Origin: Rhodocollybia butyracea
Lineage: Eukaryota; Basidiomycota; Agaricomycetes; Agaricales; Omphalotaceae
Reading direction: 5' to 3'
Length of the DNA stretch: 64,000 nucleotides
NCBI GenBank assembly: GCA_015501585.1
Contig: JADNRY010000261.1
Location: 23,262 to 87,261 of the forward strand
Shown: positions 19,089 to 45,507 of the stretch, piece after piece
Layout of the letters: each line of letters opens with the position of its first letter
Position numbering within the stretch: position 1 is the first letter of the stretch
The notes under the pieces: model-generated
The model's input: only the letters and a program-made list of their open reading frames with translations
The model's database searches: none
Told to the model about the DNA's origin: nothing
Translations under genes and position numbers: made by a program

Positions 19089-22000
19089 GAAAAACACACA
19101 ACGTCGAGCGAATATCCGGAATTCTGCACTGTCCCTGTGGTAATCCGGCACATAACAGATACCATGTGGAACGGTTCAAAAAAATCTTTACCGACTTTTC
19201 CGTCCATCCTACCATCAATGATTTAGGTGAAAAGTATGCGGATCCATCGCCTCATCTCTACGTTAGCCCCTGTAGCGGCGTACCTTCTGCGCCTCCGACC
19301 CCGGATGAGATGATATCTCAGTTTTCATCTCTGCAGGTGGCCGGTCCTTCCACCACGGCAGAGCCTCTTGACGCCAGTCACCAAACAGAAGATGAAGACA
19401 TTGAGATGGAGGGAACCGTCGATGACTTTGGTGATAACGTGGACGAAGGAGAGGGGCAGGAATGGGAGGACGAACCAGCAGTTGGGCTAGATTCGGATAT
19501 GGAAATCTTGGCATCTGCAGATCATGACGAAGAAAAGGAACACGATGATCCAATGGATGGTATTCAGGTTCCAGAAGAAAGCTCAGAGGAAGACTCGGAC
19601 TCGGACACAGAGTGTCATGACGATTTTGATGAAAATCCTGCATCCCCTCCACCTCCTCCTTCTGATGAGCTTGTACAGGATCTAATATCCCGGTACGCTC
19701 CAGACCCTGACGATATCAACGAGAATGCTGCACGAAAGTTCCTCCAAGAGAACCAGATTGTTGTGGATCCAATCCAGCGCTGGACAGTCTGCCTCCAATG
19801 CCGTCTGCCTATTCGTTGGACAACTATTCACAAGCACCGACGCTGTGAACACCATTCTCGTTTCTCTCGACTTTCCCGTACCGCTGGCGCTTTTGTGGAA
19901 TTTCCGTCGGAAGAGGAGATCATACGAAACCTCCTTATTCTCAAAGCAGATCAAGCTACAGAATACAGTCTGCGGATGATTCCTCCTGTGGAGGGTCTCG
20001 AGGTGAAGACCTGTGTCAAATGCTTGTTTCCTGGTTGCGGAAAAATCTACAGCTCAAAAGGCTCCTTCGATTATCACTGGAGAACATCGCAGAGCCATAC
20101 TGGTAAAAGATCTAGCAGCAAAGTCAACGTCCACCCACTCGGGGGCATGATGTTTTCGCAGCAATACATCGAAATCACCGGCTCTCTGAACCATTTAGAC
20201 TCTGACAAAGTCCTCCAGAAAGTTTTGGCTCTTGCAAAGGAACGCGGGGTTCTCGATCCTCCAACTATAGCAGGCCCTCCTGGTACCGCGTCTGCAATGA
20301 ACCAGGTCTACAACGAGTTTCGCTGGAACGAAATTATTGAAGGCGCTGTTTTTGAAGACGTTCGAGTTTCTGCTCTCATCCCTGTTGCTTCTGAAGAGCC
20401 CGACTATTTTCGAATTGTCCAAGGCGCTCATTTCTACTACTGGTCCATCGTCCCGAAACTTGAGAGCTTGGGCACTACCGTCCGGCGTTGGATTCGATCT
20501 CTGCGGCCTAGGTAAGGTTTTGTTCTTTTCAAGTATTTAATTACTCAGATTTGTGCCAGTGAGATTCGCAACATACCTTTTCGTAGATTACAGGAAAAGA
20601 GCAGTATGGATCAGAACGCAAATGTTCTTGCTACCTTCCTGGTTTTCCTACTACGAAACACACGAAAGCCAATCCCAAGCTTTGATATTGTCCTCCACCC
20701 AGCCGCAAAAGGTGCTCTTACGATGCTGGGAGACAAAGCCACGGAAATACCTGGGCCTGCGGCTGAAGACCAGAAGATATACAACTCAAATATCAGTAAA
20801 GCCATCCATGACGCAGTTTGGACGTTCCTATCAAACCCATCTAGTGAATTCCTAGTCAATCGTCAGCTCTGTCCTCTTCTGCGGTTTTTCGTGGCCTCCC
20901 ACATTCGTGATGCTATTGGTACTCTTGGGATGATAACACAAGTCACACCAAGAATCTCGAAAATTCAGTGGTGCTTCCGAACCACTGGATGCAATGTCAT
21001 CATACTCGGACGGGAAGAATTTGATAACGAAGAGTTTAGGTACATGACTTGTTCTTATTCCCCAACGGTTACTGACTGAATTATTAGAACGTACGAAGCC
21101 CTTGTTCAAAATTACCTTATGGACGGTTACAGTACCGCATTCACTACGATGAGAGAGACCAAAAACAGGTTTTCGAGTGTGATTGCCAGCCAGCCAACCA
21201 TTGCTCGATTCACCTGGGACGTGGACTCCAAAGTTGTCAGTATGGATGGGACTCCGATCTCCGTTCAGAAGCTTTTCGACTCTTGGCAAACGTGTCTTGC
21301 AGATCTTGAAACCGCCACACGTAAAGTTTTCCGGGGCTATGACTATACCGCGATCCTTGAGCTCATAGATTCGAAAACAATCCCTCTTCCGGAAGAGTCA
21401 TCGAATTGGTTCGTTGACTCACGAGCAGAGCTGGACTACCTCTACTCGTTTATAGAGGAGGACCGTAATCAGCTAAAGCCGTATCGAGAGGTTCTTCTTC
21501 AGCATTTACTGAAGGATAAAACCATGTTCGCTGTTGCAAATGGCGAGCTCATCCCAAACGAGAACGCGATCTGGCAATGGTTTGCCGACTTGCAGGATTC
21601 TGTTAATCTCAAGTGGTATCTAACCCATGTGTCTAGCCCTGGAACTGGTCGAGGTAGAGAGTGGGAAAATATCTATTATGCCAATCATCCTTCCCATTCT
21701 AAAAATCTTCACTGCCTTAACGGAACACCTGGCTATGAACCCTATTACGGAAAAACGCAGGCAGTGAAGGGGTATACCGAATGCATACTCCGAACACCAG
21801 CCTGGCAGGTGATGCGATACGATATTTTAATCCTTGATTGCGCCTATTTCGCCGCCTCTCATCTGGGTAACCTCATTGGGATGAAGAAGGAGTTCTGTGC
21901 TAATTATCTCTATCGATCGTTTGTGAGATACGGAAGACCCATGGAATCTGCAGATTTCTCCAAGTTCCTCCAATACATTACCCAAAAGACAATCGGCGTT

Positions 22001-24531
22001 CCCCTTGGACTCCTCGACTACCGACAGCTTGACACTGCCATCCTGAACCAGATCGCACACCTTTCCCTTGAAAAAGCAGATTTCGAGGATACTGAAGTAG
22101 AGGAGATGCACCTGATGTCAGGCCATTCTGCCCAAACGGCGCGTAATACTTATGGAGTCAGTCACTCATCGGCCACCCCAACTATCCCTCAAGATATTGT
22201 AGCGTCTCAGCAACGTAAAGCACGGGTTTGGCAGGGGGTCATTGGTATGCTTCATCCTCGACTTCGCGTCAAAGCTTCAAGCATCTCCGTACGTTTTTTT
22301 TTTCTTTATTCATCTGATATTATTTTAAATCCCCACTAGCCCAATAGCTCTGGTTATACATTTTCTCCAGAGGTAATGGAACAAATTCTCGCGCCGATTG
22401 TAAAGTCCGCTGTTGAGGAATCGACTCGAACCATCATGGGTGGGTTACACAAGGAAATCCGTGAACTTAAATCCTTTATCACCGGGGCTTATACCTCGGG
22501 GATTCACCAAGTTCTTGAAATCATCACCGGCAGTGGTCCTGCGCCATTCTATGATTCTCCTCCTGTGCCTGTCTCCCAGGACTGAGAGATTTCATTCACC
22601 GAAACTGTTTCCCTCATCTTGAATCATTTTCTTTTCATTCTCCCCAACAAGCCGAGGCAATTGCAAGTGTCCAGACCAAGGACCACATCTTCGTTGTCCT
22701 TCCTACTGGCGGCGGAAAAAGCCATGCGTTTCTTGCTGCGCCCTTGGTCCAGCGTGGTGTTTATATTGTGATCTTTCCCCTCGTTTCTATTGTGAATGAG
22801 ATGAAGCTGCGCGCTGACAAGCTTCCGATCCAAGCAGTGATCTGGGGAGAGGACGAGTTTGACTTTTCACGGCCCGGGCTTATCCTTGTAGCGGTTCACA
22901 AGGCGGCAACCGACAAGTTTCGAGCTTGGATGAAACTTGAGGAAGTGTACAAGCATATCCGTCGAATATTCATCGACGAATGTCATCATATCATCACGGA
23001 CCCAGACTTTCGTCTTTGCTATGACATCCTGGTCTTTCTCACCGAGCTTGGGATTCCGTATACTTGGTTATCTGCCACTCTTCGTCCCTCCGATATGCCT
23101 CTTATCGTTGATACTCTTCAGATTCCGGGGGATGCTGTCATTCGTGAGATCCGGGCTTATACTGGCCGTCTCAACCACATTTACACCCACCAGAAAGTCG
23201 CTCCAAAAGATTTGGAAGAAGCAATTTTAGCCTGGGTTCGTCCGCGGGCAAAGCTGGAAGGGAAAGCACGAGCGTTGGTATATGTTTCAAGCCGAAAAGA
23301 ATGTGAGGGAATTGCCCAACTCCTAGATGTGGATTTTTTCCATTCCCAGCTTGATCCAGAACGCAAACGTACTTTGGCTCAGCAGTGGCGAGATGGTTCC
23401 GAATACCGGCACCGCTTTCTGGTCTGTACTTCTGCATACGGTGAGGGAATTGATTGTCCAGAGGTAGTCTGGGTCCTGTCTATTAATCCTTTTGGGATTA
23501 TCTCTCTTGTACAGTGGGAGGGACGTGCGGGACGGAATGGACAGCCAGCTGAATGCCATACGATCTTCACTCGCCTCCCAAGGATCAACGTGGGCCATGT
23601 CGACTCCAAAGGAGCTGCTGCACTTGTCAGGAGACTCACAGGCGGGGATTGTATTCGCTTGTCGCAGGCCTCTCTTGACCGTGAGACGCATTCCTGCTCA
23701 GCTCTTACAGGTGCACAGTTGTGCCAAAACTGCAATGAGGTATATCTTTAATAGTATCCGGACTATTAATACTCTAATTTATTACTAGGCTCCGATGGAC
23801 AATCTTGCCGGCGTTCCCAATATCAATCTCCAGAACCGGCTACTCAAATGGACACAATCCAAGCCGATTATTGACCCGACAATTCCTGTTTCGAGTGTTG
23901 CCAGCAGTGTCGTTCCTCTACGCGAAAGGTTTGAAGCAAGGGATAAAGCGCTCGAGAAATTCGAGCGAATACTGGACCAGATCGCTGCCCGGGGTTGTAT
24001 TTTTTGTTTTGTTGACGGGACTACACATCAACCCGACACATTTCACGAGCCTCACAACAAGTTTGAGCTCCTCCGTAGCAAGTTTTCAAGCTCGACAACC
24101 GCTCCGGGCTTCAACGTCAAGGCGAACATACATGTTCCTTATTGCTTCCATTGTTGGATTCCGTTTCGCCAAGTTGGCAGTAATCATCCAAATCCCGAAC
24201 CTGGCCGGGCTTGGGACACACAAGACTGTCCATATAATGGGACCCAACACACGATCATTCCCAGCCTCATAGCATACATTTGGGGCAAAAAGGAGGTGTT
24301 TGACAAGGTAGACATAAAGTTGGGTTTGGGCTGTAAGGATGTTGATGGCTACTACAACTCGGACACCCTGTGGAAATGGCTGACATCCCCGGTTGGAGCC
24401 ACTGAGTTGCAACCACCGTATGTTTTTGTAAACGCGTTCTTTGATACTTGTATATCTCTTGACTAATATTAACTGCTGGGCTAAGGCGCATGCGTATGCT
24501 CGTTCTGAACTTGGAACAACGCCTTGATTAG
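19089..24531 (+). CDS. OrsD-like zinc finger / tyrosine-recombinase-like segment / RecQ-type helicase fusion
   Basis: Seven exons after an unresolved start: 19089-20511, 20560-21039, 21088-22288, 22340-22532, 22580-23739, 23789-24417, 24486-24531, all joining in one frame, about 1700 residues. In order: CPCG and H motifs; a long acidic stretch; OrsD-like fingers (CLQCRLPI, HKHRRCEHH about 19790-19860; CLFPGCGKIY, HWRTSQSH about 20020-20100); a region of about 560 residues ending in DYRQ, GHSAQTARNTYG (22016-22156), which resembles tyrosine-recombinase box II and the nucleophile Tyr nine residues after His; then a helicase with LPTGGGKS, DECHH, SATL and QWEGRAGRNGQ, typical of RecQ. A CQNCN motif follows about 23721. 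RecQ genes joined to OrsD are known in fungi, some telomere-linked; a recombinase role is inference. Confidence 0.8.
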
Positions 24532-25620: not shown

Positions 25621-25699
25621 ACCCTGTGAGGTATGAACCTGCATGTGTTCGCTGAATCGGTTTTGTACACAGGTCTACTAACAGTTGAGCTATCAGGGT
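25621..25699 (-). tRNA. tRNA-like unit, CCCTGA family
   Basis: Minus strand: acceptor ACCCTGA with 3' partner near AGGGT, A-box TAGCTCAACTG, B-box-like GGTTCATACC. The anticodon stem is TGTGT/ACACA around a long loop. The sister at 26522-26598 has TGTCC/GGACA, a compensated change. No U33 in the expected place, so the isotype is not assigned. Confidence 0.45.
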
Positions 25700-26086: not shown

Positions 26087-26181
26087 ACTCAAATAGTCAA
26101 GTGGTCAAGACACCTTGAATATATATACCATTCATATACCAATATTTCAAGGAGGCGGGTGGTTCAATTCCCCCTTTGGGT
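26087..26181 (+). tRNA. tRNA-like unit, family A copy 1
   Basis: Family consensus: acceptor ACTCAAA/TTTGAGT, A-box TAGTCAAGTGG, D stem GTC/GAC, arm starting CCTTG and closing CAAGG around a variable insert, T arm with GGTTCGATTCC. Here the acceptor is ACTCAAA/TTTGGGT, with GGTTCAATTCC as B box and nine T at 26202-26210. Confidence 0.6.
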
Positions 26182-26521
26182 ATAGTTGAGAGATCCTCCA
26201 GTTTTTTTTTCCCACTGTCCCCAGTACTGCGGGACCACGCTGCAATACCCCGGTCATCTTTCATTCCTCCTTTGAGTGTAGCGGACTGATCATACAGTTA
26301 TCTTCCAGCATATAGGAATCAAGCAATGACTAGAAATGCAGGGAACATCCGTGACGTGTTTTAGCTGAGGGATCATATTGAAAGTCTGAGCATGGAATGA
26401 TGCACCTCAATCAAAGACAGCTCAGTGTGGGCACTGAATATAAGAGTCTTGGTGATTTGTAGTGGAGCAAAAAAAAAAAAAAACAAAAACAAAAACTGCA
26501 GAAATACCAGACGCGTCGATT

Positions 26522-26598
26522 ACCCTGTGAGGATCGAACCTGCGTGTCCACTGAATCGGGTTTGGACAGATATCAACTAACAGTTGCGCTATCAGGGT
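26522..26598 (-). tRNA. tRNA-like unit, CCCTGA family
   Basis: Minus strand: acceptor ACCCTG/CAGGGT, A-box TAGCGCAACTG, B-box GGTTCGATCC, anticodon stem TGTCC/GGACA around the 14-nt loop AAACCCGATTCAGT. The stem covaries with that of 25621-25699. No U33 in the expected place. Confidence 0.5.
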
Positions 26599-26648
26599 TC
26601 AATACTGCTACTGGTACAAAGGTACTTGGCAGCTGCAGGCTGTGACAC

Positions 26649-26693
26649 ACTCGAATAGTCGAGTAGCTAAGATCGTGCAGGGTTCAATTCGAG
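26649..26693 (+). repeat. Truncated family A tRNA-like unit
   Basis: ACTCGAATAGTCGAGTAG then directly GGGTTCAATTC; the anticodon arm is deleted and the acceptor is open. Confidence 0.5.
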
Positions 26694-26804
26694 AGAAAAG
26701 TCTCTAGGTGGATCTGCCACCCAACGCATGGCACAGTGTGACAATGTATAGAAGTTACGTGAGAGCCCGACATCACTTTACCAGGTTCACCACTTCCAGA
26801 GTGC

Positions 26805-26906
26805 ACTCGCATAGTCCAGTGGTCAAGACACCTTGAAATCATCCATATATCTGTTTCAAGTACATTTAGATTCCAGGGAGATGGGAGTTCAATTCTTCCT
26901 GTGAGT
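26805..26906 (+). tRNA. tRNA-like unit, family A copy 2 (GTGAGT type)
   Basis: Acceptor ACTCGCA/TGTGAGT, T stem GGGAG/CTTCC instead of GGGGG/CCTCC (compensated), arm CCTTGAAATC facing GATTCCAGGG with one mismatch. T run at 26928-26932. Confidence 0.6.
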
Positions 26907-26974
26907 ATTCACCATGAGACTGCGCAATTTTTGTGACCCCCCTCTGTTAACCTGGTGAACAGATCCTAATATGC

Positions 26975-27044
26975 ACTCAAATAGTCAGGTGGCCAAGACG
27001 CTTTGAAATTACAAGTGGGCGGGGGTTCGATTTCTCCTTTGGGT
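26975..27044 (+). tRNA. tRNA-like unit, family A copy 3, nearly insert-free
   Basis: 70-nt unit with acceptor ACTCAAA/TTTGGGT, A box, B box GGTTCGATTTC and an anticodon loop of only about 6 nt (AAATTA) between CTTTG and CAAGT. It shows what the family looks like without the insert. T run 27065-27070. Confidence 0.6.
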
Positions 27045-27182
27045 GTAGTGGAGAGATCATGCAGTTTTTTCGCCTTTACTGATGATAGTACTAATGTTGA
27101 GGGAGGGTTCTCTGGATTGTGTTGTCTCCCTCAAACAAATATGAGAAAAAAATACTAGGTCGAAATACAGGAGGCATGGATT

Positions 27183-27246
27183 ACCCTACAAGGTTCGAAC
27201 CTGTGAAGTTTGGCCATAGGTCAACTAACAATTGAGCTATCAGGGT
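27183..27246 (-). tRNA. tRNA-like unit, CCCTGA family
   Basis: Minus strand: ACCCTGA/TAGGGTA acceptor, A-box TAGCTCAATTG, perfect B-box GGTTCGAACC. Shortened anticodon arm; isotype not clear. Confidence 0.45.
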
Positions 27247-27433
27247 ATGAATTAAAAGTCCCTTGCCTCTGATGTCACTAAGCATAACATCTTTATATTA
27301 TTCTGGCCGATTTTACGCGCAGTAGAGCAAAGGACTTGTGAAAGAAAAGGCGACGCCGGCAGGATGTGCCCGGATGCAACAGACTCTGTGCATGAAACAA
27401 CACGTTCAACCAGATGGACGAATCCTAGTACAC

Positions 27434-27519
27434 ACTCAAATAGTCAAGTGGTCAAGACACCTTGAAATCATAACATCTTGAAGGATTAAGGAGGCGGGGG
27501 TTCAATTCCACCTTTGGGT
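27434..27519 (+). tRNA. tRNA-like unit, family A copy 4
   Basis: ACTCAAA/TTTGGGT acceptor, TAGTCAAGTGG A box, GGTTCAATTCC B box, arm CCTTGAAATC. T run 27556-27560. Confidence 0.6.
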
Positions 27520-27612
27520 GTAACAAGAAAGCAATATGTGTGAAGCTGATAGTAGTTTTTATTTGAAACCATTAGTGTTGGCGAGCAACCGATTCTACGA
27601 GGTCTAGTACAA

Positions 27613-27685
27613 ACTCAAATAGTCACACCTTGCAATTATAAACTTGACGCAGGATGGAGGCGAGGGTTTGATTTTACCTTTGGGT
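27613..27685 (+). tRNA. tRNA-like unit, family A copy 5, D arm deleted
   Basis: ACTCAAA/TTTGGGT acceptor and a B-box relic, but the D loop is lost (TAGTCACACCTTG). T run 27707-27712. Probably a pseudo-copy. Confidence 0.45.
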
Positions 27686-27879
27686 GTGCCCGAAAATAGA
27701 GTGAACTTTTTTCCCCTCTCTAGAAGACTCTTATCCACACAAGGTGGTGGTTCAGTTTGTCCTTTGATGTATAACCCAGTCTCTACAAGGTGGTTGGGAT
27801 GCCAGCAGGTAACTCGAAGAGTTGGCCAAGTCGTGATGCGCAGTGACACAGTGGCCAACTTTCAACACATCCAGTGCTT

Positions 27880-27975
27880 ATTCACATGGTCTAGTGGTCA
27901 AGACACCTTGAAATCATATAACTTGGGCTCACTGTGAGATTTCATGGAGACGGGAGTTCAATCCTTCCTGTGAAT
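27880..27975 (+). tRNA. tRNA-like unit, family A copy 6
   Basis: Perfect seven-pair acceptor ATTCACA/TGTGAAT, different from the family standard yet fully paired. A-box TGGTCTAGTGG, T arm GGGAG/CTTCC, T run of seven starting three bases after the unit (27978-27984). Confidence 0.6.
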
Positions 27976-28077
27976 GATTTTTTTCTCTGTCCTAGAGTAA
28001 TGTAACATGGGGGTGTTGTCTACATATGTGGTATGAACGCAAACACTATTTAACCTGGTAAACTACTTTTAGTATGC

Positions 28078-28175
28078 ACTTGAATAGTCAAGTGGCTAAG
28101 ACACCTTGGAATCATACATCAAGCTCCAGTGCTAGAGGATTCCGGGGAGGCGGGGGTTCGATTCCTCCTTTGAGT
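28078..28175 (+). tRNA. tRNA-like unit, family A copy 7
   Basis: Acceptor ACTTGAA/TTTGAGT, arm CCTTGGAATC paired with GATTCCGGGG (10 pairs, three G-U or compensated relative to copy 9), B-box GGTTCGATTCC. T run 28197-28203. Confidence 0.65.
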
Positions 28176-28279
28176 ATCCACGAAGTGTAAACGATGTTTT
28201 TTTCGACCCTATAGGGAATCTCAAGTGGTGCTGTTTTAGGACAATCTGAAGAGTTCTGGTCTGACCACATACAGTACTC

Positions 28280-28491
28280 ACTCGAGTAGTCAAGTGGCCA
28301 AGACGCCTTGAAGTTATACTAATATTTCAAGGAGGCGGGGGACCTTTGAGTGTAATAAGAAAAAAATAAGGTACTCCCTACATGAAACGTATGTACTTCC
28401 AGGTCTAGTACAAGCTCAATTAGTCAAGTGGCCAAGACACCTTGGAATTATACATCAAGCTCCAGTGCTAGAGGATTATGGGGAGGCCGGG
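28280..28491 (+). repeat. Two truncated family A units (28280-28351 and 28413-28491)
   Basis: Both have acceptor and A box and the CCTTG arm, but the T arm with the B box is deleted, so internal Pol III promoters are incomplete. Confidence 0.55.
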
Positions 28492-28918
28492 GTGTGCCTG
28501 AATCGCCGCGATAATTGGCATGTGTGAGAGTCCACTCTGGGCGAGACCAGTTTCTGAGGCTCGTCCAGGGATTGCCTGCAGTAAGCCAGGTCATTCTTAG
28601 CTTGGAATGATATCTTGATTAAACCCAGCTCTAAATTGTTGACCTCATACTAGTAGACACTGTTGGCAGGCACGAGCTGATCAGGGAATGACAATCAACT
28701 CGTTCAGGCTATGGACTCTCCAGTTTGGTGCCCAACACTTCTAGTGTGTCCAAGAAGCCATACAAGCAAAGTTGAATTTCATGGAGACGGGAGTCTGTGA
28801 GTAAATAAGCTTAATTTTTTCTACTCTCCAACTGGAACACGTATAGATTTGCACAAGCCAGCCATCATACTTTGAAAATGGATTTGAACCATAAGCTTAA
28901 ACCAGTCCATGACTTCAC
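28492..28918. other. Spacer without recognised feature
   Basis: AT-balanced spacer between tRNA-like units. A short GGAGACGGGAG fragment about 28782 is a T-arm relic of family A; nothing else is seen. Confidence 0.4.
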
Positions 28919-28975
28919 ACTTGGATAGTCAAGTGAACAAGACACCTCAATTGATTTCGAGGACGTGTTGCTGCA
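28919..28975 (+). repeat. Degenerate family A unit
   Basis: ACTTGGATAGTCAAGTG then AAGACACCTCAA, with no B box. Confidence 0.45.
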
Positions 28976-29084
28976 AGGGTTACCTGTAGTGGTGTATTGA
29001 ACGGGCTAATCTTTTTCCTGCACTTCTTGATGTATCACAGATTTTCGCGCGACAGCATTAGCCCCTTCACCACTCCTAGCACAG

Positions 29085-29167
29085 ACTCGAATAGTCAAGT
29101 GGGCAAGACGCCTTGCACCCAAGATTTCATCTTTCAAGGAGGCGGAGGTTCGATTCCTCCTTTAAGT
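29085..29167 (+). tRNA. tRNA-like unit, family A copy 8
   Basis: ACTCGAA/TTTAAGT acceptor, A box TAGTCAAGTGG, B box GGTTCGATTCC, arm CCTTG/CAAGG. Only four T at 29193-29196 follow. Confidence 0.6.
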
Positions 29168-29269
29168 GTAACGGAAATGTAATTGTATACAGTTTTAGTA
29201 AGCCAGACAGCCACAGCTATGTGAAAGCACATTGGTTTATTGGCCTAAATCTCAACACATCTAGTGCTT

Positions 29270-29364
29270 ACCCACATAGTCTAGTGGTCAAGACACCTTG
29301 AAATCATATGAATTGGATTGCTATCGGATTTCAGGGAGACGGGAGTTCGATTCTTCCTGTGGAT
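29270..29364 (+). tRNA. tRNA-like unit, family A copy 9
   Basis: ACCCACA/TGTGGAT acceptor (six pairs), arm CCTTGAAATC paired with GATTTCAGGG over ten positions, T stem GGGAG/CTTCC. Seven T at 29371-29377. Confidence 0.65.
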
Positions 29365-29499
29365 AAATGATTTTTTTCCACTGTGTGCCAGTTAGGCGAC
29401 CAACACTGAATGACTACACCCTCAATAGTCAGAGGTGTGAGCGCAAAAAAAGTGCTGTGTCTCAGGCATGTTAGAAACATCATTTAACCTGGCATTAGT

Positions 29500-29853
29500 A
29501 CACAATAAAATGGTTGATTGGATAAGACGCCTCGAAGAATCGCTTATAATGAGGAAAACAGTTTTTTTCTTTCCGTTACGGATGAGTGGGATTCTTTCCC
29601 CAAATGGATGTGCGCAAGATGCTAGTAACTAACCCTAACCCCTAAGTTTTAATTCGAAACCCATTTTACCAGGTCTAGTACACGCTCGAAAACTCAATGC
29701 CTTGAAATCATATGTTTAACCCCAGATAGTGCTGTGGCCGTAGCATAAATATTCTGAGTCGTACCACTCCTGTGAAACAGTCAAGTCGTCAAGACGCCTT
29801 GAAATTACACATACGAAATAAGATGAGGTAGGGGTTCGATTCCTCCTTTGGGT
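29500..29853 (+). repeat. Decayed family A units (about 29500-29565, 29690-29715, 29771-29853)
   Basis: Three pieces. The last keeps a good B box (GGTTCGATTCC) and GTCAAGTCGTCAAGAC, but its acceptor does not pair. A telomere-like CTAACCCTAACCCC lies at about 29629-29642. Confidence 0.5.
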
Positions 29854-30408
29854 GTACCTGTACTTCACGTAATAACAAAAACAGTTACCGATGAGTGGGA
29901 TGAGATGTACGCAAGACATTACAGCTTTAAAATTAAAAAAGAAGGTTTTAGGATCACAATCAAGATAGTCTCATAAAGTATTCCTTGGGCAGGAAATATG
30001 GCTCACATGTAATGATGTCATTAGGCTTGGAACTGAAGATTGGTTCCAATGTTAAGTCTTAGTGTTGTTAATATTTACGGATTCCAGAAGATGGCTGCAG
30101 GAGAGCGGGGATCGCCATCTCTCGATCCATGGGAGTCAATAAAAAATTAGAGAATGGGATTCGAGGCCCGCTCACTGGAGCAATAAACCACTGGACTATA
30201 AGTGCCTTGCTAGGGTGAATAGTTAGTGCATCTAAAGGTCAGTAGTTTCGTGCTTAACTCAGAATGATGTCAGATGCGTATAGCAGCCTCTGAAGTTGAG
30301 CATAAGTGAGGTAGCACTTTTATGACTCCAAGGATATGGTGTCAACTACTAGACCATGGTGGCTGCAATTTTAGTAACATAATGGGACTCGTATCAACTA
30401 ATAAGAAG
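29854..30408. other. Spacer with a decayed tRNA-like unit on the minus strand (about 30155-30225)
   Basis: The minus strand near 30190-30215 has TATAGTCCAGTGG and a B-box relic TCGAATCCCA. The rest shows no recognisable feature, apart from GATGTCATT sequence shared with several spacers. Confidence 0.35.
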
Positions 30409-30487
30409 GCTCAGATAGTCTAGGGGTAAGACAATTCAGTTGTATTGCCAGCCACGAATAGACGTAGGTTCAATTCCTACTCTGGCC
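30409..30487 (+). tRNA. tRNA-Thr(TGT)-like, with intron
   Basis: Acceptor GCTCAGA/TCTGGCC (one mismatch), A-box TAGTCTAGGGG, T arm GTAGG/CCTAC with TTCAATT loop. The anticodon arm is ATTC/GAAT around a loop starting G-U-UGU-A, giving U33 and anticodon UGU. An insert of about 11 nt follows position 37, where nuclear tRNA introns lie. Seven T at 30505-30511. This is one of the few units here that could be a working tRNA. Confidence 0.55.
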
Positions 30488-30613
30488 GTTCCACGTGTGT
30501 CCACTTTTTTTCTCTAACCTTCTGCATTTAAACTACTTCAACTTGCTAGGGTGGTAACGCAGATCGTTAAAGCACAAGTGCACACTTGACCAGGGCTACC
30601 ACTTTTACAGTGC

Positions 30614-30704
30614 ACTCACATAGTCCAGCGAGACGCCTCGAAATCATTCACATGAAGTTACATCTTTATTTCGAGGAGACGGGAGTTCGATCCTTCCTGT
30701 GAGT
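30614..30704 (+). tRNA. tRNA-like unit, family A copy 11
   Basis: ACTCACA/TGTGAGT acceptor fully paired. The arm CCTCGAAAT pairs perfectly with ATTTCGAGG, a covariant of the usual CCTTG/CAAGG. D loop shortened. Six T at 30721-30726. Confidence 0.6.
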
Positions 30705-30803
30705 ATGTGTGGATAGACGATTTTTTCCATCAGTACTTATTCCATATGAGGAGCAGGGATGGCAGCAAGTTGGACAAAGCGATAATAATGCATTCTGGTA
30801 TGC

Positions 30804-30860
30804 ACTCAAATAGTCGAGTGGCCAAGAAAGCAGGAGTTTAGGGTTTAGGGTGATTTTTTT
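30804..30860 (+). repeat. Truncated family A unit fused to telomere-like repeat
   Basis: ACTCAAATAGTCGAGTGG breaks off and is followed by GGAGTTTAGGGTTTAGGGTG, then seven T. Two TTTAGGG units match a fungal-type telomere repeat, but this is far too short to be a telomere. Confidence 0.45.
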
Positions 30861-30917
30861 GCCTACTCTCTATGTGAAGCTTGTGCAGGTTAGCCATTAA
30901 TTGGCGAGCTTGTACAA

Positions 30918-31002
30918 ACTCAAATAGTCAAGATCCATCATATATCAAGCTTCAGGGCCAGAGGATTCCAGGAAGGCGGGGGGTTTGAATCCTCCTTTGG
31001 GT
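30918..31002 (+). tRNA. tRNA-like unit, family A copy 12, D arm deleted
   Basis: ACTCAAA/TTTGGGT acceptor and T arm present (B box GGTTTGAATCC); A box truncated to TAGTCAAGATCC. T run 31027-31031. Confidence 0.45.
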
Positions 31003-31260
31003 GTGATGGAACAATTCATGTGGACATTTTTAAGTGAGCCAGCCTTCTTTGAATAGAAACTCGAAGAGTATGCTTCCCACAGGAGCAGGTTAGTCTTCAT
31101 CGCCGGCTATGCTCGCAGCTATGTGAAAGCACGTGTGTTTATTGGCCAACTTTTAACGCATCTAGTGCCCTAAGAGACGGGAGTTTTGTGAATTATGGCG
31201 TAATGACAGGCACAAAGGATTCTGACTTGAAAAGGGCCCTGGTTCACACTCCTGGTATGC

Positions 31261-31341
31261 ACTCGCATAGTCTAGTGGTCAAGACACCTTGAAACTGTAC
31301 TACTCGAGTCCTACAACAGATTCCAAGGTCTTCCTGTGAGT
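31261..31341 (+). repeat. Truncated family A unit (GTGAGT type)
   Basis: ACTCGCA/TGTGAGT acceptor and A-box TAGTCTAGTGG, but the T arm is deleted. Confidence 0.5.
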
Positions 31342-31590
31342 ATTAAAGGATGAGTAATTCATCCAGGAGGAACGTGCAAGCCAGATATAGACAGGAGGTG
31401 AGTAACGTCCGTCCAAGACGCCTCGGAAAGGGTTCTCTGAGTGTCCACACCGAGTCTGTGTTGCATAGCGATTGTGGTGGATGTTAACAGGGCGTTTCAG
31501 GGCAGCATTAAACACTGGTAAACTATCAAGACGAGGACATGGCAACTAGTTCATCTACTGTAACGAGGCACATCAGTACTGAATTATATT

Positions 31591-33435
31591 CTACTTGACA
31601 TTTTTGAGAAAGCGATCAAGTTCCTTCAACCACGCGGTTACTTCGGTATTTTCAAGTCCTTCCCAATGGACGCGATCTGGGCCACCACGCGACATAGCTG
31701 CCTTCCACCCCATAAAGACGTTACGTGCTCCAACCAGCAATACGAGTTCATCTGCAATCTCTGCAGCCTTGTTCGGTAACCCTTGGTTTGCTTTCTCCTC
31801 TTCCACTTTTGCCTTTTTCTTCGTCTCTGTTTCGAGTTTCTTCCACTTGGGCCACCACTCCATCATTTTCCGGTTCATCATCTTTGCGATTTCTAGCCCT
31901 TCTAAGCTCCAAGTTGAGACGCCAATATGGACAGACGCGGTCAAGGAGAGGCAGCAGTGGATGGTGAGGGGTGGAACGTCAAAACAATCGCCTTGCTCAA
32001 CCAGGTATACCTGCATACCCGTCATGTTTCTCATATACACGTCAAGCGAATGCTCAGGATGGTAATTCATCTCATATAAATTCCGACAGACCCATGATAT
32101 GTTATGTTCAATTGGGGGCCAAACCACCCATACCTTCGAGCCCCTTGCCTGGTAGATCCGCATTCCATACCCGAACCCATCCCTGTGAGCCGAGGTGATG
32201 CTTCCCGGCTGAGTATAGGTGGCCGGTCGTAGATCTGGAGAGTCAAAGACGATTGTAGAGGACTCCCATCGTATGTTGAGGTCTTTGAGCCCGTCGCGAG
32301 CTGCTACTGGCCAACTTTCAACAATCGAATAGTATGGTTCTTCGGGATCCACCAGACTTTCACGGTCGCTGAAATTGGCGATAAGCTCCGCTGAAATCCT
32401 AGTTAGAACACAAAAAAAAAAAAAAACTGGATGAGAAGAAACTTACACAGCAAAGGAAATGCATTCATTCCTAGTGAGCCAATACTCGCTTTTCTAACGT
32501 CAACTGCCAAGTCGGCCCAGATCATTGAAGTATTAAAAACTGAGCTCATTTCTGGAGCCGGGGCTTGGGTGAGAAGACCAGATGAATTCGGCATGTCGAA
32601 TGCGAAGGTTGGTTGGTTTTTCAGACGTTCGAGGAACCGGTCGACTCGATCGCGGAGGTTAAGGTGTCTGCAAGAGTGTGGGTCCCAGAGTGCTTGAATC
32701 TTTTCAGCTGGAGTCATTGTGTCTGGACTATAGTCAGCATGGAATGTACTTTCCCTGAAAAAGGTGGACTTGCCACTGTAAACAATTTTGGATGACTCGG
32801 GGTTAATCTTTTGTTTTTTCTACCCATAAATTAGATGTTTCATAGTTGAAAAGAGGTAAAAATGACGCACGTTTATTGGGGTAGAAGGCCCCGCTTCAGG
32901 AGTGTCTTGAGTTACGACTTTCTGCTTCTTGGAGTTTAATTTTCTCAACCGATCCTGGAAAAAAAACTCAATATCGATACAACTAACAACCACAACATCT
33001 TCACCTCGTTTCCTTCTATGTCTTCACTTATGGCATGCTTGTTCTTGCTGTAGTCTTCCCAGTGTTCTTTGAGTGTATTCCACGTATAGTGGGTCCCTTT
33101 TATTGACGATGGATGAATGAACGCTTGATTTAAAGGTTTCTCATTCCAGTTCAAGCCATCAAAGACCCAATATCGTTCAGATGAGGTGTTCAAATGGAGG
33201 TAACCAATCTTAGGATTCGGACTATCGCTTAGGGTTTCATACAGAAAGCGCGTGGCATCAGGAGGACCAGGTGAGGTTGAGTAGATCGTCTCAAAATTTT
33301 GACTGTTGATTCTTCGACTCTTGGACTTGGTAATCATAGCATCAACCAAGTCTTAATGCTCATGTTGGCTTGAGCATGGTAGGCATATCGAGATGGAAAC
33401 TTACTGGTGGAGTTTGGTGTATTGCTGTTTGACAT
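31591..33435 (-). CDS. JmjC-like cupin protein, paralogue 1
   Basis: Six exons, complement(31591-32390, 32447-32722, 32774-32819, 32871-32954, 33005-33351, 33405-33435), 1584 nt, 527 residues. The fourth intron appears to use a GC donor (32773), where the paralogue at 59621 has GT. Residues about 35-125 hold a conserved unknown module (PNPKIGYLHLN, YWVFDG). Residues about 260-420 are JmjC-like: SITSAHRDGFGYG (HxD), GSKVWVVWPP, and DCFDVPPLTIHCCLS with the distal His. The C-terminus is helical and basic, with KKKAKVEEEK. Five of six exon lengths equal, or nearly equal, those of the 59621 gene (31, 46, 276 and 800 nt identical). It probably acts as an Fe(II)/2-oxoglutarate oxygenase on a protein; substrate unknown. 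It sits inside the tRNA-like array. Confidence 0.8.
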
Positions 33436-33531
33436 TGAGGGGGGAGGGTTTGTTGAGGAATACCTTCTGTGTGGTCGAGAGAGTTTGGGGCGAGTGGTGT
33501 TGTCGACAAGTAACGGAAAGAGAAAGTTTGA

Positions 33532-33550
33532 GCGCTTATTGCTGCGCAAC
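33532..33550 (-). promoter_or_regulatory. Conserved 19-bp upstream motif of JmjC paralogue 1
   Basis: GTTGCGCAGCAATAAGCGC on the minus strand, 97 bp before the start codon. The identical 19-mer lies 98 bp before the start of the paralogue at 59621. Conservation amid diverged flanks suggests a regulatory site or the 5' leader. Confidence 0.5.
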
Positions 33551-33804
33551 ATGTTATGTAATATTTGATCTCGTAAAGTTCACTCGATCAGTCCACATTC
33601 AAGCGCATCTACGCCTGTTGTGTAGAAAAATACATAGACAAATTGTATCTTGGCAGGATTCTGGGATGTTCTGGGAGATTCTGGGAGATTGTGGCAGAAT
33701 TCTGGCGGAATCCAAGAATAGTGTATTCATCTCTATCCTAAATACGAAGAACTTGGTATAAACCCTGAAGCTCTTCAAGTAGCTTTCCTCCACGTATCTA
33801 ATAA

Positions 33805-33885
33805 TGTCTGTATGGCACGGTGGCATATGTGGTTCACAAACCTCTTGGTTCAGAGCAACCCGCAAGGGTTCGATACCCTCAGACA
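33805..33885 (+). tRNA. tRNA-like unit, family D
   Basis: Acceptor TGTCTG/CAGACA (six pairs), A-box-like TGGCACGGTGG, B-box-like GGTTCGATACC. Related decayed copies are at about 38432-38505 and 43330-43400. Isotype not assigned. Confidence 0.4.
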
Positions 33886-34135
33886 GCAGTTTTACCATAA
33901 TCATCATCCCATGTTTTTTCATGGCTGATTTATTGTTCATTGAGTAGTATTTTTGAAAAGCATATCCTTCAGTCAGCAAGCAGCGTGCGCAAACAGATCA
34001 ATTTCACGTGCATTACATATCACTTTATGTGACTAGAAGTCGGAATCAGAGTCAGAGTGAGCTCATCTAGCCACAGTGTTGCCAGGCACTTCTGGCCACC
34101 GTACCAAGACAACATTCACTCCGCTCCTAGTACAC

Positions 34136-34235
34136 ACTCGAATAGTCAAGTGGTCAAGACACCTTGAGATTATAGATCGTTGATTCGGCACTGTTTGTAT
34201 TTCAAGGAGGCGGGGGTTCAATTCCTCCTTTGAGT
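34136..34235 (+). tRNA. tRNA-like unit, family A copy 13
   Basis: ACTCGAA/TTTGAGT acceptor, arm CCTTGAGAT paired with ATTTCAAGG (one G-U), canonical A and B boxes. Six T at 34249-34254. The insert begins TATAGATCGTTG, shared with the decayed copy at 34746. Confidence 0.65.
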
Positions 34236-34363
34236 GTGCTGTAATACATTTTTTCTTGTACTTCTTGATAAGTATATTTCTGCGGACATGGGTTACTGGT
34301 AGGCACTGAATTAGTCACCTATCCTACAGTAACAGCATTCATCAAACTGCACTTGTAGTACGC

Positions 34364-34447
34364 ACTTGAATAGTCAAGTGGTCAAGACGCCTTGAAATAA
34401 TAGATGAGAAAATCAAGAAAGCATGGAGTTCGATTCCTCCTTCAAGT
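34364..34447 (+). tRNA. tRNA-like unit, family A copy 14
   Basis: Acceptor ACTTGAA/TTCAAGT, seven perfect pairs though both strands differ from the family standard. B box AGTTCGATTCC. The inner arm is poorly paired and no T run follows closely. Confidence 0.5.
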
Positions 34448-34499
34448 ATACATCGGGTTAACGCCAGTATACAAATTTGGTAGTCCACTTTGATAGTGT

Positions 34500-34594
34500 A
34501 CTCACTTAGTCAAGCTGCCAGGATGCCTTGAGATTTTGACAAGCAAGCATTGTCCATATTCCAAGGAGACGGGAGTTCGAGTCTTCCTGTGAGT
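34500..34594 (+). tRNA. tRNA-like unit, family A copy 15
   Basis: ACTCACT/TGTGAGT acceptor with one mismatch, altered A box (TAGTCAAGCTGCC), B box AGTTCGAGTC. Six T at 34611-34616. Confidence 0.45.
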
Positions 34595-34745
34595 ATCTGA
34601 GAATATATAATTTTTTCCATCTTCCAACAAGTGGGATTCACACATATTTTTATTCTGGATGGGGAAATGGCGAGAGCAGGGACGGTAGCAAGTTGAATCC
34701 AGGCATTGAAATGGGATAGCAATAAAGGGTTAGGAGAATGCAATC

Positions 34746-34812
34746 TGCCAAGACACCTTGAGATTATAGATCGTTGGTTCGGCATTTATATTTCAACGAG
34801 GGGGGTCCAGTG
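34746..34812 (+). repeat. Degenerate family A unit
   Basis: Shares AGACACCTTGAGATTATAGA with copy 13 but lacks both acceptor halves and the T arm. Confidence 0.5.
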
Positions 34813-34929
34813 TAATACATTTTTTCCGCGCTGCGTGAGGTGCCATAGATATAGATGGGTTGGCAAGTTACAGAAGAAAGTACTAAATTAGTCGCCTGCA
34901 CTTGACCTGGTTCACCACTTGTAGTACAC

Positions 34930-35025
34930 ATTCGAATAGTCAAGTGGTCAAGACGCCTCGAAATTATAGATACAAAGTGAAATCTCATCTTTCAAGGAGG
35001 CGGGGGTTCGATTCCTCCTTTGAGG
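34930..35025 (+). tRNA. tRNA-like unit, family A copy 16
   Basis: ATTCGAA/TTTGAGG acceptor, canonical A box and B box, arm CCTCGAAA facing TTTCAAGG with one mismatch. Six T at 35053-35058. Confidence 0.6.
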
Positions 35026-35104
35026 GTAACATCTTAACATCAGAAGAGTTAATTTTTTCTCAGTTGCTGGAAAAGGTAGGTGATGTCAACGAATTTCAAT
35101 ACAC

Positions 35105-35190
35105 ACTCAAATAGTCAAGTGGACAAGACACCTTGAGTGCATCTCACATTAACATTTCAAAGACGCGGAGGTTCGATTCCTCCTTTGAAT
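35105..35190 (+). tRNA. tRNA-like unit, family A copy 17
   Basis: ACTCAAA/TTTGAAT acceptor, canonical A and B boxes, arm CCTTGAG with ATTTCAAAG. Six T at 35218-35223. Confidence 0.6.
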
Positions 35191-35273
35191 GTATAAGGAA
35201 TGACTGAATGAGTTACATTTTTTGTCACATATAAGAGCATTCATCAAACTGCACTTGACCTGGTTTACCACTT

Positions 35274-35369
35274 GTACGAATAGTCAAGTGGTTAAGACGC
35301 CTTGAAATTATAAAACTGCCCCAGGATTTCAGGTTTCAAGGAGACGGGGGTTCGATCCCTCCTTTCAGT
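35274..35369 (+). tRNA. tRNA-like unit, family A copy 18, weak acceptor
   Basis: Canonical A box and B box (GGTTCGATCCC), but the 5' acceptor strand (GTACGAA) does not pair well. T run of about 13 at 35405-35417. Confidence 0.45.
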
Positions 35370-35527
35370 ATGTTATTTGCCATCCCAAACATGAGACAAT
35401 GTGAGTTTTTTTTTTTTTACCTGATGTTGTGATATCATTCTCGAATTGTTAATCACTCTGGGATTTCTTTTTGCATGGACATAAGACTCGAGCGCACGTC
35501 TCAGGCAACTTTAGTGCAGGTATTCAT

Positions 35528-35596
35528 GGCCTGATGGTGCAATGGTATTTCCCTTGGTTTGTTCTTGTAATCAAGAGGCTTTCTCCTAAGCAGACC
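35528..35596 (+). repeat. Degenerate family B tRNA-like unit
   Basis: GGCCTGATGGTGCAATGG matches the unit at 46499-46575, but the B box is deleted. Confidence 0.5.
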
Positions 35597-35599
35597 CTT

Positions 35600-36530
35600 G
35601 AAATAATGGCCTTGTGAAAATGTAGAGCCACGTTTTTTTTTCTCTCAAAAATAAATATGCTAGGAACGATTCCTTACCAGGCTGCACTTGTATGGCCTGA
35701 TACGCCTTTGGTTCCGATCTGAGTTTGAAAGGATTCAGCATTGTGTGAATGCCCTAAAAATGAGATGGACAAGTAACAACACTCTAGTCTGTCATAGTGA
35801 GGTTGAACAATTGAGCTCGCAAACACATAGTAACTACATGCTAGCTTATATACTATACATACTGTATAATATGCTACAGGCGCCTAAGTAATCTCCGGAG
35901 TTGCCACATCAGAAGAGCATGTCGAACCCCGCATCTTGCGAACAGGAGGGTCTCTGGTGACCCATCAACTGGGATCCTGGCAACACTTGAGTAAGAGGCA
36001 CATGATCCACCTGCTTGGTTAGTTTTACTCTATATTATGTAGTTGTATCAGGATAGCAGCATTGTGTAGGGATTTTTGTTTTGTTTTGGCTACTGTATAG
36101 AAACTCTGTTTTGCTTTGAAACAGGTTGCGGACATAGATTGAAGAAGGGAAAGTGAGACTTGAGGATGACGTGTGAACAATGATGTCATTGTAATCGGTT
36201 CTGATCTCTGGTTGTAACAGAAAAGTTGTTCCTGGCTTGGAACGACGGAACCAGAACTCACCTCATCAATAAAAAATAGTAATAGCTCAAGGATAAAAAG
36301 GGGTTCAGGGGTGCGGTGAATGTACACCGGACAAACACTTCACACTACCACTACTAGGCCATAAGGGCATTAATAATTTCCAGCAACACACCCTAAAGGG
36401 TATACATAATCAGATGAGCATGGTATGAGCTGAAGAGGTGCATGTTGGTCAGTGAAACGCGTCGTCACTCAACCCATGCTTTGTCCCAAGACCGCTTGTC
36501 TTTTAACCTGGTTCACCACTCCTAGTATGC
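35600..36530. other. Gene-free spacer
   Basis: No gene seen. About 36178-36290 (GATGTCATTGTAATCGGTTC and a following TGGCTTGGAACGAC) resembles 43512-43590 and 44512-44545, a dispersed repeat. A decayed tRNA-like end (CCATAAGGGCATT) is at about 36358-36371. Confidence 0.4.
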
Positions 36531-36618
36531 ACTCAAATAGTCAAGTGGCCAAGACACCTTGAAATTGTAAAATCCAACAATCTACCTTTTCAAGGAGGCA
36601 GGGGCTCAACCTTTGAGT
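36531..36618 (+). repeat. Family A unit with damaged B box
   Basis: ACTCAAA/TTTGAGT acceptor and good A box and arm, but the T arm reads GGGGCTCAACC, missing half of the B box. Confidence 0.5.
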
Positions 36619-36736
36619 GTACCGTAGAAATTGAATATCTAGAGAAGACCTGCGGTGCATTTTGTCCTTTGATGTATAGTAATAATCAGTAATCATTTTC
36701 AAAGCCAATTATCTGAGACCATGAGCTCTACTACAC

Positions 36737-36821
36737 ACTCAAATAGTCAAGTGGTCAAGACGCCTATACAAGGATAAATCTCATCTTTCAAGGAGGCGGG
36801 GGTTTGATTCCTTCTTTGAGG
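36737..36821 (+). tRNA. tRNA-like unit, family A copy 19
   Basis: ACTCAAA/TTTGAGG acceptor, canonical A box, B box GGTTTGATTCC, shortened 5' arm (CGCCTATACAAGG). Six T at 36849-36854. Confidence 0.55.
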
Positions 36822-36916
36822 GCAATACTTTGACATGGAAACATGTAATTTTTTCCCAGTTGTTGGAACAAGAAAAGTCTGATCACACTTTCCCAAGTCA
36901 ACGACCTCTAATACAC

Positions 36917-37019
36917 ACCCAAATAGTCGAGTGGCTAAGACGCCTTGAGATCATGGATCATTCATCCCAAAACTATATAAGTATTCCAAGGAGGCGGAGG
37001 TTCGATTCCTCCTTTGAGT
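36917..37019 (+). tRNA. tRNA-like unit, family A copy 20
   Basis: ACCCAAA/TTTGAGT acceptor (one mismatch), A box TAGTCGAGTGG, B box GGTTCGATTCC, arm CCTTG/CAAGG. Seven T at 37040-37046. Confidence 0.6.
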
Positions 37020-37135
37020 TTGATGGGAAATGATTGACATTTTTTTCCTGTTCTGCTCGATAGTGCTGCAGACATGATTGGCAAGTTAGTCAGTCATCAA
37101 ACTGCACTTGACCTACTTCACCACTTTTAGTACAC

Positions 37136-37609
37136 ACTCAAATAGTAAACTGCCCAAGACATGACCTATATTTCAAGTTTGATTCCTTACCAAGCCTCAA
37201 CAATCAGGAGTGACAATAAAAGGATTCTTACATGACATTGTTTCCCACTCCTGGTATGCGCTTGCATAGTCTTGAAGCACAAAGTTACATGGCAAGGAGG
37301 CGGGGATTCGATTTGTCCACTTTCCAAGAGGGACGTGGGATAAGAGATCAAAGCAATCAGAAATTTTATGTCATATATATCCATTTGTTTTAACGTCTGG
37401 ACTAAGTAGCCCGTGGGATAGGCCTACAGTATTGGGCATGAGCGCTGCTCCTTGTCAACTCAGGCCAGCATTTAAAGTGTTAGAAACACTGTTTAACCTG
37501 GTAAACTACTTTTAGTGTACACTGGAATAGTCAAGTGGTCAAGACGCCTTGAAATTATAGATGAGAAAATCAAGGATGCGGGGGTTTGTTGAGGGATCAT
37601 AAGTTTTTT
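37136..37609 (+). repeat. Three degenerate family A units (37136-37190, 37259-37325, 37521-37588)
   Basis: Each has part of the acceptor/A box and scraps of the T arm. The last begins ACTGGAATAGTCAAGTGG and ends at GGGGGTTTG, followed by six T (37604-37609). Confidence 0.5.
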
Positions 37610-40714: not shown

Positions 40715-40755
40715 ACTCAAATAGTCAAGTGGTCAAGACACATCGAAACTAGGAT
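40715..40755 (+). repeat. Truncated family A tRNA-like unit
   Basis: ACTCAAATAGTCAAGTGG and AAGACACATCGAAA only; 3' part missing. Confidence 0.55.
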
Positions 40756-43611: not shown

Positions 43612-43702
43612 ACCCTTAGTGGGATTTGAACCCACGCCTCCTCAGTCAGAGGTACATGGGCGCCTATAGGACTGAAGTCCTATACCGCTAGACTATAAGG
43701 GC
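43612..43702 (-). tRNA. tRNA-Arg(CCT)-like unit, second copy
   Basis: Near copy of the unit at 44935-45030 on the minus strand: GCCCTTA/TAAGGGT acceptor, A-box TAGTCTAGCGG, T arm GTGGG/CCCAC with GGTTCAAATCC. The D stem is disturbed (ATAGGAC in place of ATGACAC), so this copy is probably inactive. Confidence 0.45.
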
Positions 43703-45030: not shown

Positions 45031-45403
45031 ATTCTTAAATTTCAGACGCTGATCTACAACACACACCTTGAAGGTAGTGTATTACAATGCTCAGATCAGA
45101 ATTAAAGGAAACAAATAGTGAAATTATCCTCCAACGTCTCATGTTTGAGCCATGTCAGTGCATTACTAATTGATGAAGTTGTGTCCGCCCGATCAATGCA
45201 GCCATATGGAATTTGGTACAAGCCGAAGAGGTGCGTGTGTAGTTTCTCTGAGTAAAGTACTTCTTATTAGGAGACCGGGTATGAAAATGTTGTGCTACAG
45301 TGTTGGCGAGATGCCATTGAGTGAGCCTGTTGTTTTTATGTGGACCAAGGTCATGAGTGAAGCACTTTGTTGAACATCATGTTTACCAGTCTCTCAGTAC
45401 ACA
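45031..45403. other. Gene-free spacer
   Basis: The 67-codon frame at 45170-45373 is too short and featureless to call. Confidence 0.35.
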
Positions 45404-45507
45404 GTCAGATGGTCAAGTGGCTAAGACACCTTGAAAGCGTGGGATGTCGGAAAGTCGAAGAATATTAATCTTCCAAGGAGGCGGACGTTCGAATACTCCT
45501 TTGGGTA
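45404..45507 (+). tRNA. tRNA-like unit, family A copy 21 (outlier)
   Basis: A-box TGGTCAAGTGG, arm CCTTGAAAG with CTTCCAAGG, T arm with CGTTCGAATAC. Acceptor AGTCAGA/TTTGGGT pairs poorly. About 8 kb from the main array. Confidence 0.45.

Follow-up and report, generated by a model that had tools for sequence, protein, structure and literature searches.

Two arrays of tRNA-like genes in Rhodocollybia butyracea with a possible role outside decoding

The stretch of DNA analysed here, referred to throughout as the window, comprises 64,000 nucleotides of contig C563 (our label) in the assembly of the fungus Rhodocollybia butyracea (95.6 Mb, 1381 contigs). Between positions 26087 and 37609 its plus strand carries an array of units that resemble genes for transfer RNA (tRNA), with a variable insert in the anticodon loop. 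On the evidence of sequence it appears rather probable that this array and a related one on contig C80 are two old birth-and-death arrays of tRNA-like genes for RNA polymerase III (Pol III), kept for a role that their RNAs play outside decoding. On this view the locus and its C80 relative are old paralogous arrays of genes for RNAs derived from tRNA. Growth was by duplication of whole blocks, and many copies have since decayed. Pol III would transcribe each unit into an RNA of ~95-100 nt with a trailer attached; processed as tRNAs are, these RNAs might, for instance, persist as stable tRNA-like molecules or give rise to tRNA fragments. What has changed and what has not suggests selection for such a non-decoding task, acting on an RNA shaped like tRNA: the exons are kept, the insert and the flanks are near saturation, changes in the stems are compensated, runs of T downstream are kept, and the U expected at position 33 is gone. 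All comparisons are drawn from this one genome.

Extent of the array and its paralogue on a second contig

A unit consists of an acceptor stem (ACTCRAA/TTTGAGT), an A box, a three-pair D stem, an anticodon stem (CCTTG/CAAGG) whose loop holds the insert, an AGGC variable loop, and a T arm with the B box; the seven-pair acceptor, the A box, the CCTTG/CAAGG arm and the B box are present as given in a preliminary description of the same DNA. The A and B boxes are among the best-conserved portions of the units. We built a covariance model, R1, from 27 intact units, 10 of which come from the window, 16 from C80 and 1 from contig C434. The array of tRNA-like units noticed in the preliminary description proves to be real, in that the model gives 28 matches between 26087 and 37609 (E≤0.01, top score 98.9 bits), although 9 of the 28 are its own training sequences and match by construction. 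The match at 30409, with acceptor GCTCAGA, apparently belongs to another tRNA-like family, leaving 27 in the family of the array. Near full length (≥84 nt and ≥55 bits) is attained by 17 of the 28 matches and the others are shortened, while scans with a pattern and for repeats reveal additional half copies; the initial count of about 20 full-length and at least 12 truncated copies was therefore close. That all copies lie on the same strand is correct for the array family (28 of 28 matches on the plus strand), but another tRNA-like family sits on the minus strand. Its members (ACCCTGA...CAGGGT; window 25645-25699, 26519-26601 and 27172-27250) are poorly kept and interleaved with the array, and the C80 array contains sequence resembling them.

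With the Rfam tRNA model at its gathering score there are 12 matches in the window, 9 of them within the array (30409 counted), and ARAGORN calls a single unit of it (35105..35191, plus strand, 22-nt insert), so that routine scanning of this sort would overlook the majority of the units. Units are irregularly spaced: over the 46 measured, the median is 228 bp for the window and 428 bp for C80.

The genome-wide searches score the best candidates, and all counts derived from them are lower bounds. A core pattern, allowing ≤2 mismatches, has 70 matches in the whole genome against 0 for the reversed control. The arrays account for 57 of these matches: the array on C563, its overlapping sequence on C500 and C470 (99.9% and 99.7% identical to the window, respectively), and a region of C80 (C80:132501-148035). 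The remaining 13 are single copies, several of which lie in one dispersed repeat. They comprise two outliers in the window, the 5' half of a unit at 40722..40751 and a unit at 45403..45507 (both on the plus strand), with their counterparts, one more copy each on C80 and C500, and further copies on C290, C478, C1016, C434, C112 and C452; the second outlier lies in a repeat (~97-99.8% identity) common to C290, C478, C500 and C1016. A DNA search with the unit at 34136-34236 gives a similar picture, as 41 of its 46 matches fall in the arrays on C563, C500, C470 and C80, and the other 5 are short (3' half) and lie elsewhere on C563, C500, C478 and C290. Apart from the 13 single pattern matches, the genome thus does not display the scatter of copies that the preliminary description had named as the mark of an ordinary SINE (short interspersed element).

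The C80 array is a separate locus, with 41 R1 matches on the minus strand of that contig; 3 plus-strand matches occur on the same two C80 stretches, 2 outside the array and 1 weak one (20.8 bits) inside. Pieces of it are 67-88% alike to the matching pieces of the window, and some units have direct counterparts across the two arrays, for example the intact unit at 27880..27976 (plus strand), whose counterpart is 94% identical over exons and insert. The similarity extends to the surroundings: the block upstream of the C80 array matches parts of window 3.7-16.3 kb at 66-83%, and a ribonucleotide reductase-like frame located ~10 kb upstream of the window array has its C80 match ~1 kb upstream of the C80 array. 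We infer that the array is older than an ancient duplication of the locus. Both arrays contain repeated blocks of ~200-840 bp, for which the identities listed are mostly ~60-77%; one duplicated block is far closer (725 bp at 99.7%).

A comparison of alleles was discarded as evidence on selection. The C500 overlap differs from the window at 14 places, every one a single-base insertion or deletion, and the C470 overlap at 6, of which 2 are substitutions; these differences look mostly like sequencing errors and are uninformative on selection. Proximity to a telomere was not indicated either, as (TTAGGG)5 has no match anywhere in the assembly, and in the examined stretches of C80, C290 and C478 there are only TTAGGG runs of 2-3 repeats.

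Conservation of the tRNA shape and freedom of the insert

The identity between units was calculated over 300 pairs formed by 25 intact array units whose inserts measure 28-40 nt; copies from other contigs, the outlier at 45403 and four units with shifted ends were set aside. Mean identity over the exons is 0.831 (range 0.71-0.97), compared to 0.56-0.58 for shuffled sequences. The corresponding values, observed and shuffled, are 0.564 and 0.526 for the middle of the insert, 0.598 and 0.556 for the 40 nt upstream, and 0.573 and 0.570 for the 30 nt downstream (trailer). Since the identity of the insert is near that of shuffled sequence and about as low as that of the flanks, the insert appears nearly free to change, and no more variable than its surroundings.

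The insert differs between copies whose exons stay constant, and it is located where tRNA introns are found. Its length is 6-39 nt across 17 rows of the window array and 29-40 nt, mostly 31-34 nt, among 29 intact units; of the range of 6 to about 45 nt reported earlier, the lower end stands and the upper one was slightly high. Its edges are conserved, with RRATYAT on the 5' side and TT close to the 3' end. Of 20 tRNA loci of the genome with strong scores, 3 Leu-like and 6 Ser-like ones likewise have introns that differ in sequence beside nearly constant exons; these isotypes are our own reading, as ARAGORN names few of the 20. The idea that the variable insert is a special feature of these units does not survive, given its position, the like variation of introns in the tRNA genes of the same genome, and a divergence similar to that of the flanks. 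It is probably a neutral intron or loop rather than a guide; the idea of a hypervariable, guide-like insert was rejected, because the insert diverges no more than the flanks do. We searched the whole genome with two of the 25 insert cores, allowing ≤3 mismatches. The first matched only itself; the second matched itself, another array copy with the same insert, and, on two contigs, one 22-nt stretch with 2 mismatches, which may be due to chance, as the reversed control gave 1 match. In the only 4 qualifying alignments of block duplicates, too few to lean on, identity is 0.87 for exons, 0.83 for inserts and 0.70 for spacers, the insert being nearer to the exon than to the spacer.

Pairing in the stems was analysed with the 27 intact units. 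In all, 94.4% of 648 cells (one pair in one unit) are paired, compared to 90.7% with shuffled pairings and 37-56% when the structure is slid along the sequence; the units do better than shuffled controls, contrary to the outcome that the preliminary description had said would speak against it. Cells changed on both sides number 29 (11.2 ± 2.3 expected; 0 of 500 shuffles as high), and pairs changed on both sides number 8 (4.7 expected; 6 of 500 shuffles as high). A coarser count that admits damaged copies, 49 aligned rows in all, finds 515 of 588 cells of the acceptor and anticodon stems paired, compared to 494 ± 5 and at most 510 in 2000 shuffles. Two compensated changes mark a subfamily, A-U to C-G at pair 6-67 and G-C to A-U in the T stem, each maybe a single event; further compensated acceptors are ACTTGAA/TTCAAGT, ATTCACA/TGTGAAT and ACTTATA/TATAAGT. 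The residues that make tertiary contacts in tRNA are also retained in the 29 intact units: 8-14 (TA), 54-58 (TA) and A21 in all 29, 15-48 (GC) in 27, the other 2 having G-T, 18-19/55-56 (GG/TC) in 28, and 26-44 (purine-A) in 28. The intact units have the make-up of a tRNA, with its cloverleaf, the two promoter boxes and the tertiary contacts. Because exons are alike, insert and flanks lie near the shuffled baseline, and changes in the stems are compensatory, the shape of the RNA would seem to be under selection. When single tRNA-like copies from elsewhere than the array were folded as RNA, the cloverleaf was often not recovered, as is common for tRNAs.

The conservation of the A and B boxes, together with the clustering of the copies in a single orientation, could also be explained if the boxes bound TFIIIC as barrier or spacing elements, with the RNA itself irrelevant. 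We regard such a role at the DNA level as quite improbable. DNA boxes alone would suffice for a TFIIIC insulator and leave the RNA structure free; instead the acceptor and T stems are compensated and C48 and A44 are kept, beyond the needs of a promoter, and the T-runs are kept as well. The proposal that the array is barrier or insulator DNA likewise leaves unexplained both the compensatory changes in these two stems and the kept 15-48 and 26-44 contacts.

Signals of transcription were counted in 47 of the 69 array matches, those scoring ≥51 bits; T-runs played no part in finding these units. A run of at least five T occurs within 60 nt on the 3' side of 39 of the 47, mostly 9-35 nt away, compared to a background of 12-13% of the other array positions. 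Only 1 of the 47 has an A-run downstream, 8 have a T-run in the 60 nt upstream, and none has a run of five T inside. In comparison, a T-run lies 0-36 nt downstream of 17 of the 20 high-scoring tRNA loci of the genome. With A and B boxes as an internal promoter and, in most cases, a T-run as terminator, the units carry the sequence features of a Pol III transcription unit.

These observations can be set against the view that the locus is a decaying pseudogene array, in which an intron-bearing tRNA gene was tandem-duplicated, lost its U33, and drifts without function. Truncated copies are indeed many, T33 is absent, and the block duplications include very recent ones. On the other hand, drift does not readily account for exons that are alike beside near-saturated inserts, for compensated stems, for T-runs that follow most units and interrupt none, or for the retention of both arrays since an apparently old duplication, and we judge this view unlikely, if worth serious consideration.

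Several points weigh against selection for a non-decoding RNA. The 11 of 28 window matches that are shortened or weak have the look of a decaying array, and 8 of the 47 units lack a downstream T-run. Insert and upstream identities are slightly above the shuffled values, so some pairs are younger. The covariation is partly one split into two subfamilies, so that the 29 cells overstate the number of independent events; the pairing shuffles ignore the relatedness of the units, and their figures are not probabilities. The first pair of the extended pairing at positions 32-35 is weak, being open in 10 of 27 units. Finally, units were located through their exons, which biases the set toward conserved exons, and the contention that neutrality could not keep exons alike beside near-saturated inserts is an argument made by reasoning.

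Position 33 and comparison with known systems

Decoding tRNAs carry U at position 33. In the canonical register, 23 of the 29 intact units have A at this position, 6 have G, and none has T; over 49 rows, some of them damaged or off register, it is A in 37, G in 11, C in 1, and T in 0. The units thus do not combine U33 with a readable anticodon, and as T33 is never present, normal decoding by them is unlikely. One could still suppose that they are working decoding genes with an odd anticodon loop or an intron at a non-standard position, e.g. with a seven-pair anticodon stem and a YAT anticodon, a shifted loop that would put a T before the anticodon. The canonical tRNA body agrees with this suggestion, as do the conserved RRATYAT beside the stem, the introns in high-scoring tRNA genes of the genome, and the ARAGORN reading of 5 C80 units as tRNA-Tyr through the shifted loop. 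We find it improbable, however, since besides the lack of T33 in every intact unit the D and T arms fix the register of pairs 26-44 and 27-31/39-43, and the shifted loop requires two extra base pairs. Outside the family, the R1 scores of the 20 sampled high-scoring tRNA loci do not exceed 44.7 bits; the next-best scores, among the loci examined, belong to other tRNA-like families from these regions, namely the GGCCAGA family (≤71.7 bits) and an Arg-CCT-like gene at 44934 (60 bits).

The preliminary description had also suggested a tRNA-derived short interspersed element (SINE) amplified in tandem. This fails: most copies lie in the two arrays, target-site duplications show no excess in flank matches over crosswise controls (4.46/4.66, 5.43/5.47 and 6.24/6.94, respectively), and an A-run follows just 1 of 46 units. 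An ordinary SINE, whose copies would be dispersed, tailed and flanked by target-site duplications, is rejected on genome distribution, flank duplications and tails. The same three observations, with the little homology past the tRNA part, make an origin from the long terminal repeats (LTRs) of a terminal-repeat retrotransposon in miniature (TRIM) unlikely; homology hardly reaches past that part, and flank duplications are not in excess, though the 5-bp target-site duplications expected of a TRIM such as Helenus (see below) are too short for this test.

The nearest rival in print is Helenus (PMC10886601), a TRIM whose LTRs resemble tRNA. It occurs in Pucciniales and three Agaricomycetes, likewise multiplies tRNA-like sequences in basidiomycete genomes, and inflates tRNA predictions. 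A pile-up in tandem of such LTRs with a tRNA-like promoter, or of a tRNA-derived SINE, would also fit the outlier at 45403, which travels within a dispersed repeat, and the 13 pattern matches outside the arrays. Even so, we consider a mobile element very improbable here, as most copies keep to two arrays, flank matches do not exceed the crosswise controls in length, A-runs are rare, and homology stops short of what an LTR or a SINE tail would give; unlike Helenus, the units have compensated stems and give no sign of shared flanks, duplications, wide dispersal or, in an analysis that did not take LTR ends and primer-binding sites one by one, of LTR ends. The SINEs of Aspergillus fumigatus (PMC5063351) are tRNA-derived fungal repeats too, but with target-site duplications, of which there is no excess here.

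If, as we favour, the units are genes for non-decoding RNAs, they are like eukaryotic intron-bearing tRNA genes in their A and B boxes, four arms, tertiary contacts, insert in the anticodon loop, and short trailer with T-run, and unlike them in having T33 in 0 of 29 units, in forming an array of dozens of diverged copies of one family, and in that decoding is not expected. The genes for rodent 4.5SH RNA are tandemly organised, with nearly uniform copies. That RNA is a Pol III small RNA of ~100 nt, as proposed for the units, but of different origin (PMC3440375). In Entamoeba, tRNA genes are likewise organised in arrays, whose units are mostly uniform per isolate (PMC2652664), whereas the copies here are diverged, of a single family and seemingly non-decoding. 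A cluster of tRNA Ser/Tyr genes in Arabidopsis is also local and in tandem (PMC12308677), but it decodes serine and tyrosine, while the units here have a variable insert and no U33. Among the titles and abstract openings listed for open-licence papers on fungal clusters of tRNA-like genes, tandem arrays and expansions of tRNA genes, tandem Pol III genes resembling tRNA, U33-less tRNAs and basidiomycete tRNA introns, none describes such an array.

In its stronger form, the proposal would be that this fungus maintains two ancient arrays with dozens of non-decoding, tRNA-like Pol III RNA genes, the fold being selected, the insert free, and the cellular role a different one; we put this forward tentatively, at somewhat less than an even chance. 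Sequences resembling tRNA outside the decoding set are usually classed as pseudogenes or SINEs. The two arrays amount to dozens of natural variants, making the role of such RNAs testable in one organism, and even if inactive they would be a clear case of inflated tRNA gene counts in genomes.

Individual units and neighbouring genes

The following units of the window array all lie on the plus strand. Subfamily B includes, apart from the unit with the close C80 counterpart, the intact units at 26805..26907 (acceptor ACTCGCA/TGTGAGT), 29270..29365 and 34500..34595, and the unit at 30614..30705 (81.9 bits). Other intact units are those at 28078..28176, with an extended anticodon stem and compensated pairs, at 34136..34236, which has the top R1 score and reaches 45.7 bits with the Rfam tRNA model, at 34930..35026, at 35274..35370, and at 36917..37020, with a 39-nt insert. 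The array begins with the unit at 26087..26182 (82.8 bits, T-run on its 3' side); inserts measure 6 nt in the short unit at 26975..27045, 22 nt at 27434..27520, 19 nt at 29085..29168 and 21 nt at 36737..36822. The compensated acceptor ACTTGAA/TTCAAGT belongs to the unit at 34364..34448. Shortened or damaged units are found at 31261..31342 (51.2 bits), at 36531..36619, where the T arm is damaged, and at 37521..37590 (truncated).

Other tRNA-like sequences occur in the window. Two tRNA-Arg(CCT)-like genes with introns lie on the minus strand at 43611-43702 and 44934-45030; they have 12 DNA matches genome-wide, 6 identical to the 44934 copy (itself included), and several lie within a repeat common to C290, C478, C500 and C1016. 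Members of the GGCCAGA family are found at window positions 46678, 47578 and 51099 and at 2099 and 2631 of locus L041 (C563), with 49 pattern matches genome-wide (≤2 mismatches), many of them in pairs separated by ~530 bp, and several close to the ends of contigs; a GGTCAGA copy lies near GGCCAGA units on the opposite strand.

Among the protein-coding frames of the window, two score above the Pfam cut-off, one as a helicase and the other as a ribonucleotide reductase small chain; an OrsD-like frame and two JmjC-like frames score below it. The reductase-like frame occupies window 15424-16269 (Pfam was run on the window copy only) and has DNA matches of 71-83% at C80:149349-150417, beside the C80 array, at C80:134849-135654, inside that array, and at C478:23993-24832. 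The JmjC-like genes lie at 31591-33352, inside the array on the minus strand, and at 59704-61480. The OrsD-like frame, a frame without a Pfam match and the DEAD/DEAH helicase frame are consecutive at 19079-23751, and window 18817-24467 is ~81% identical to a segment of C470; the three frames perhaps belong to a mobile element that landed between the array and the reductase-like gene.

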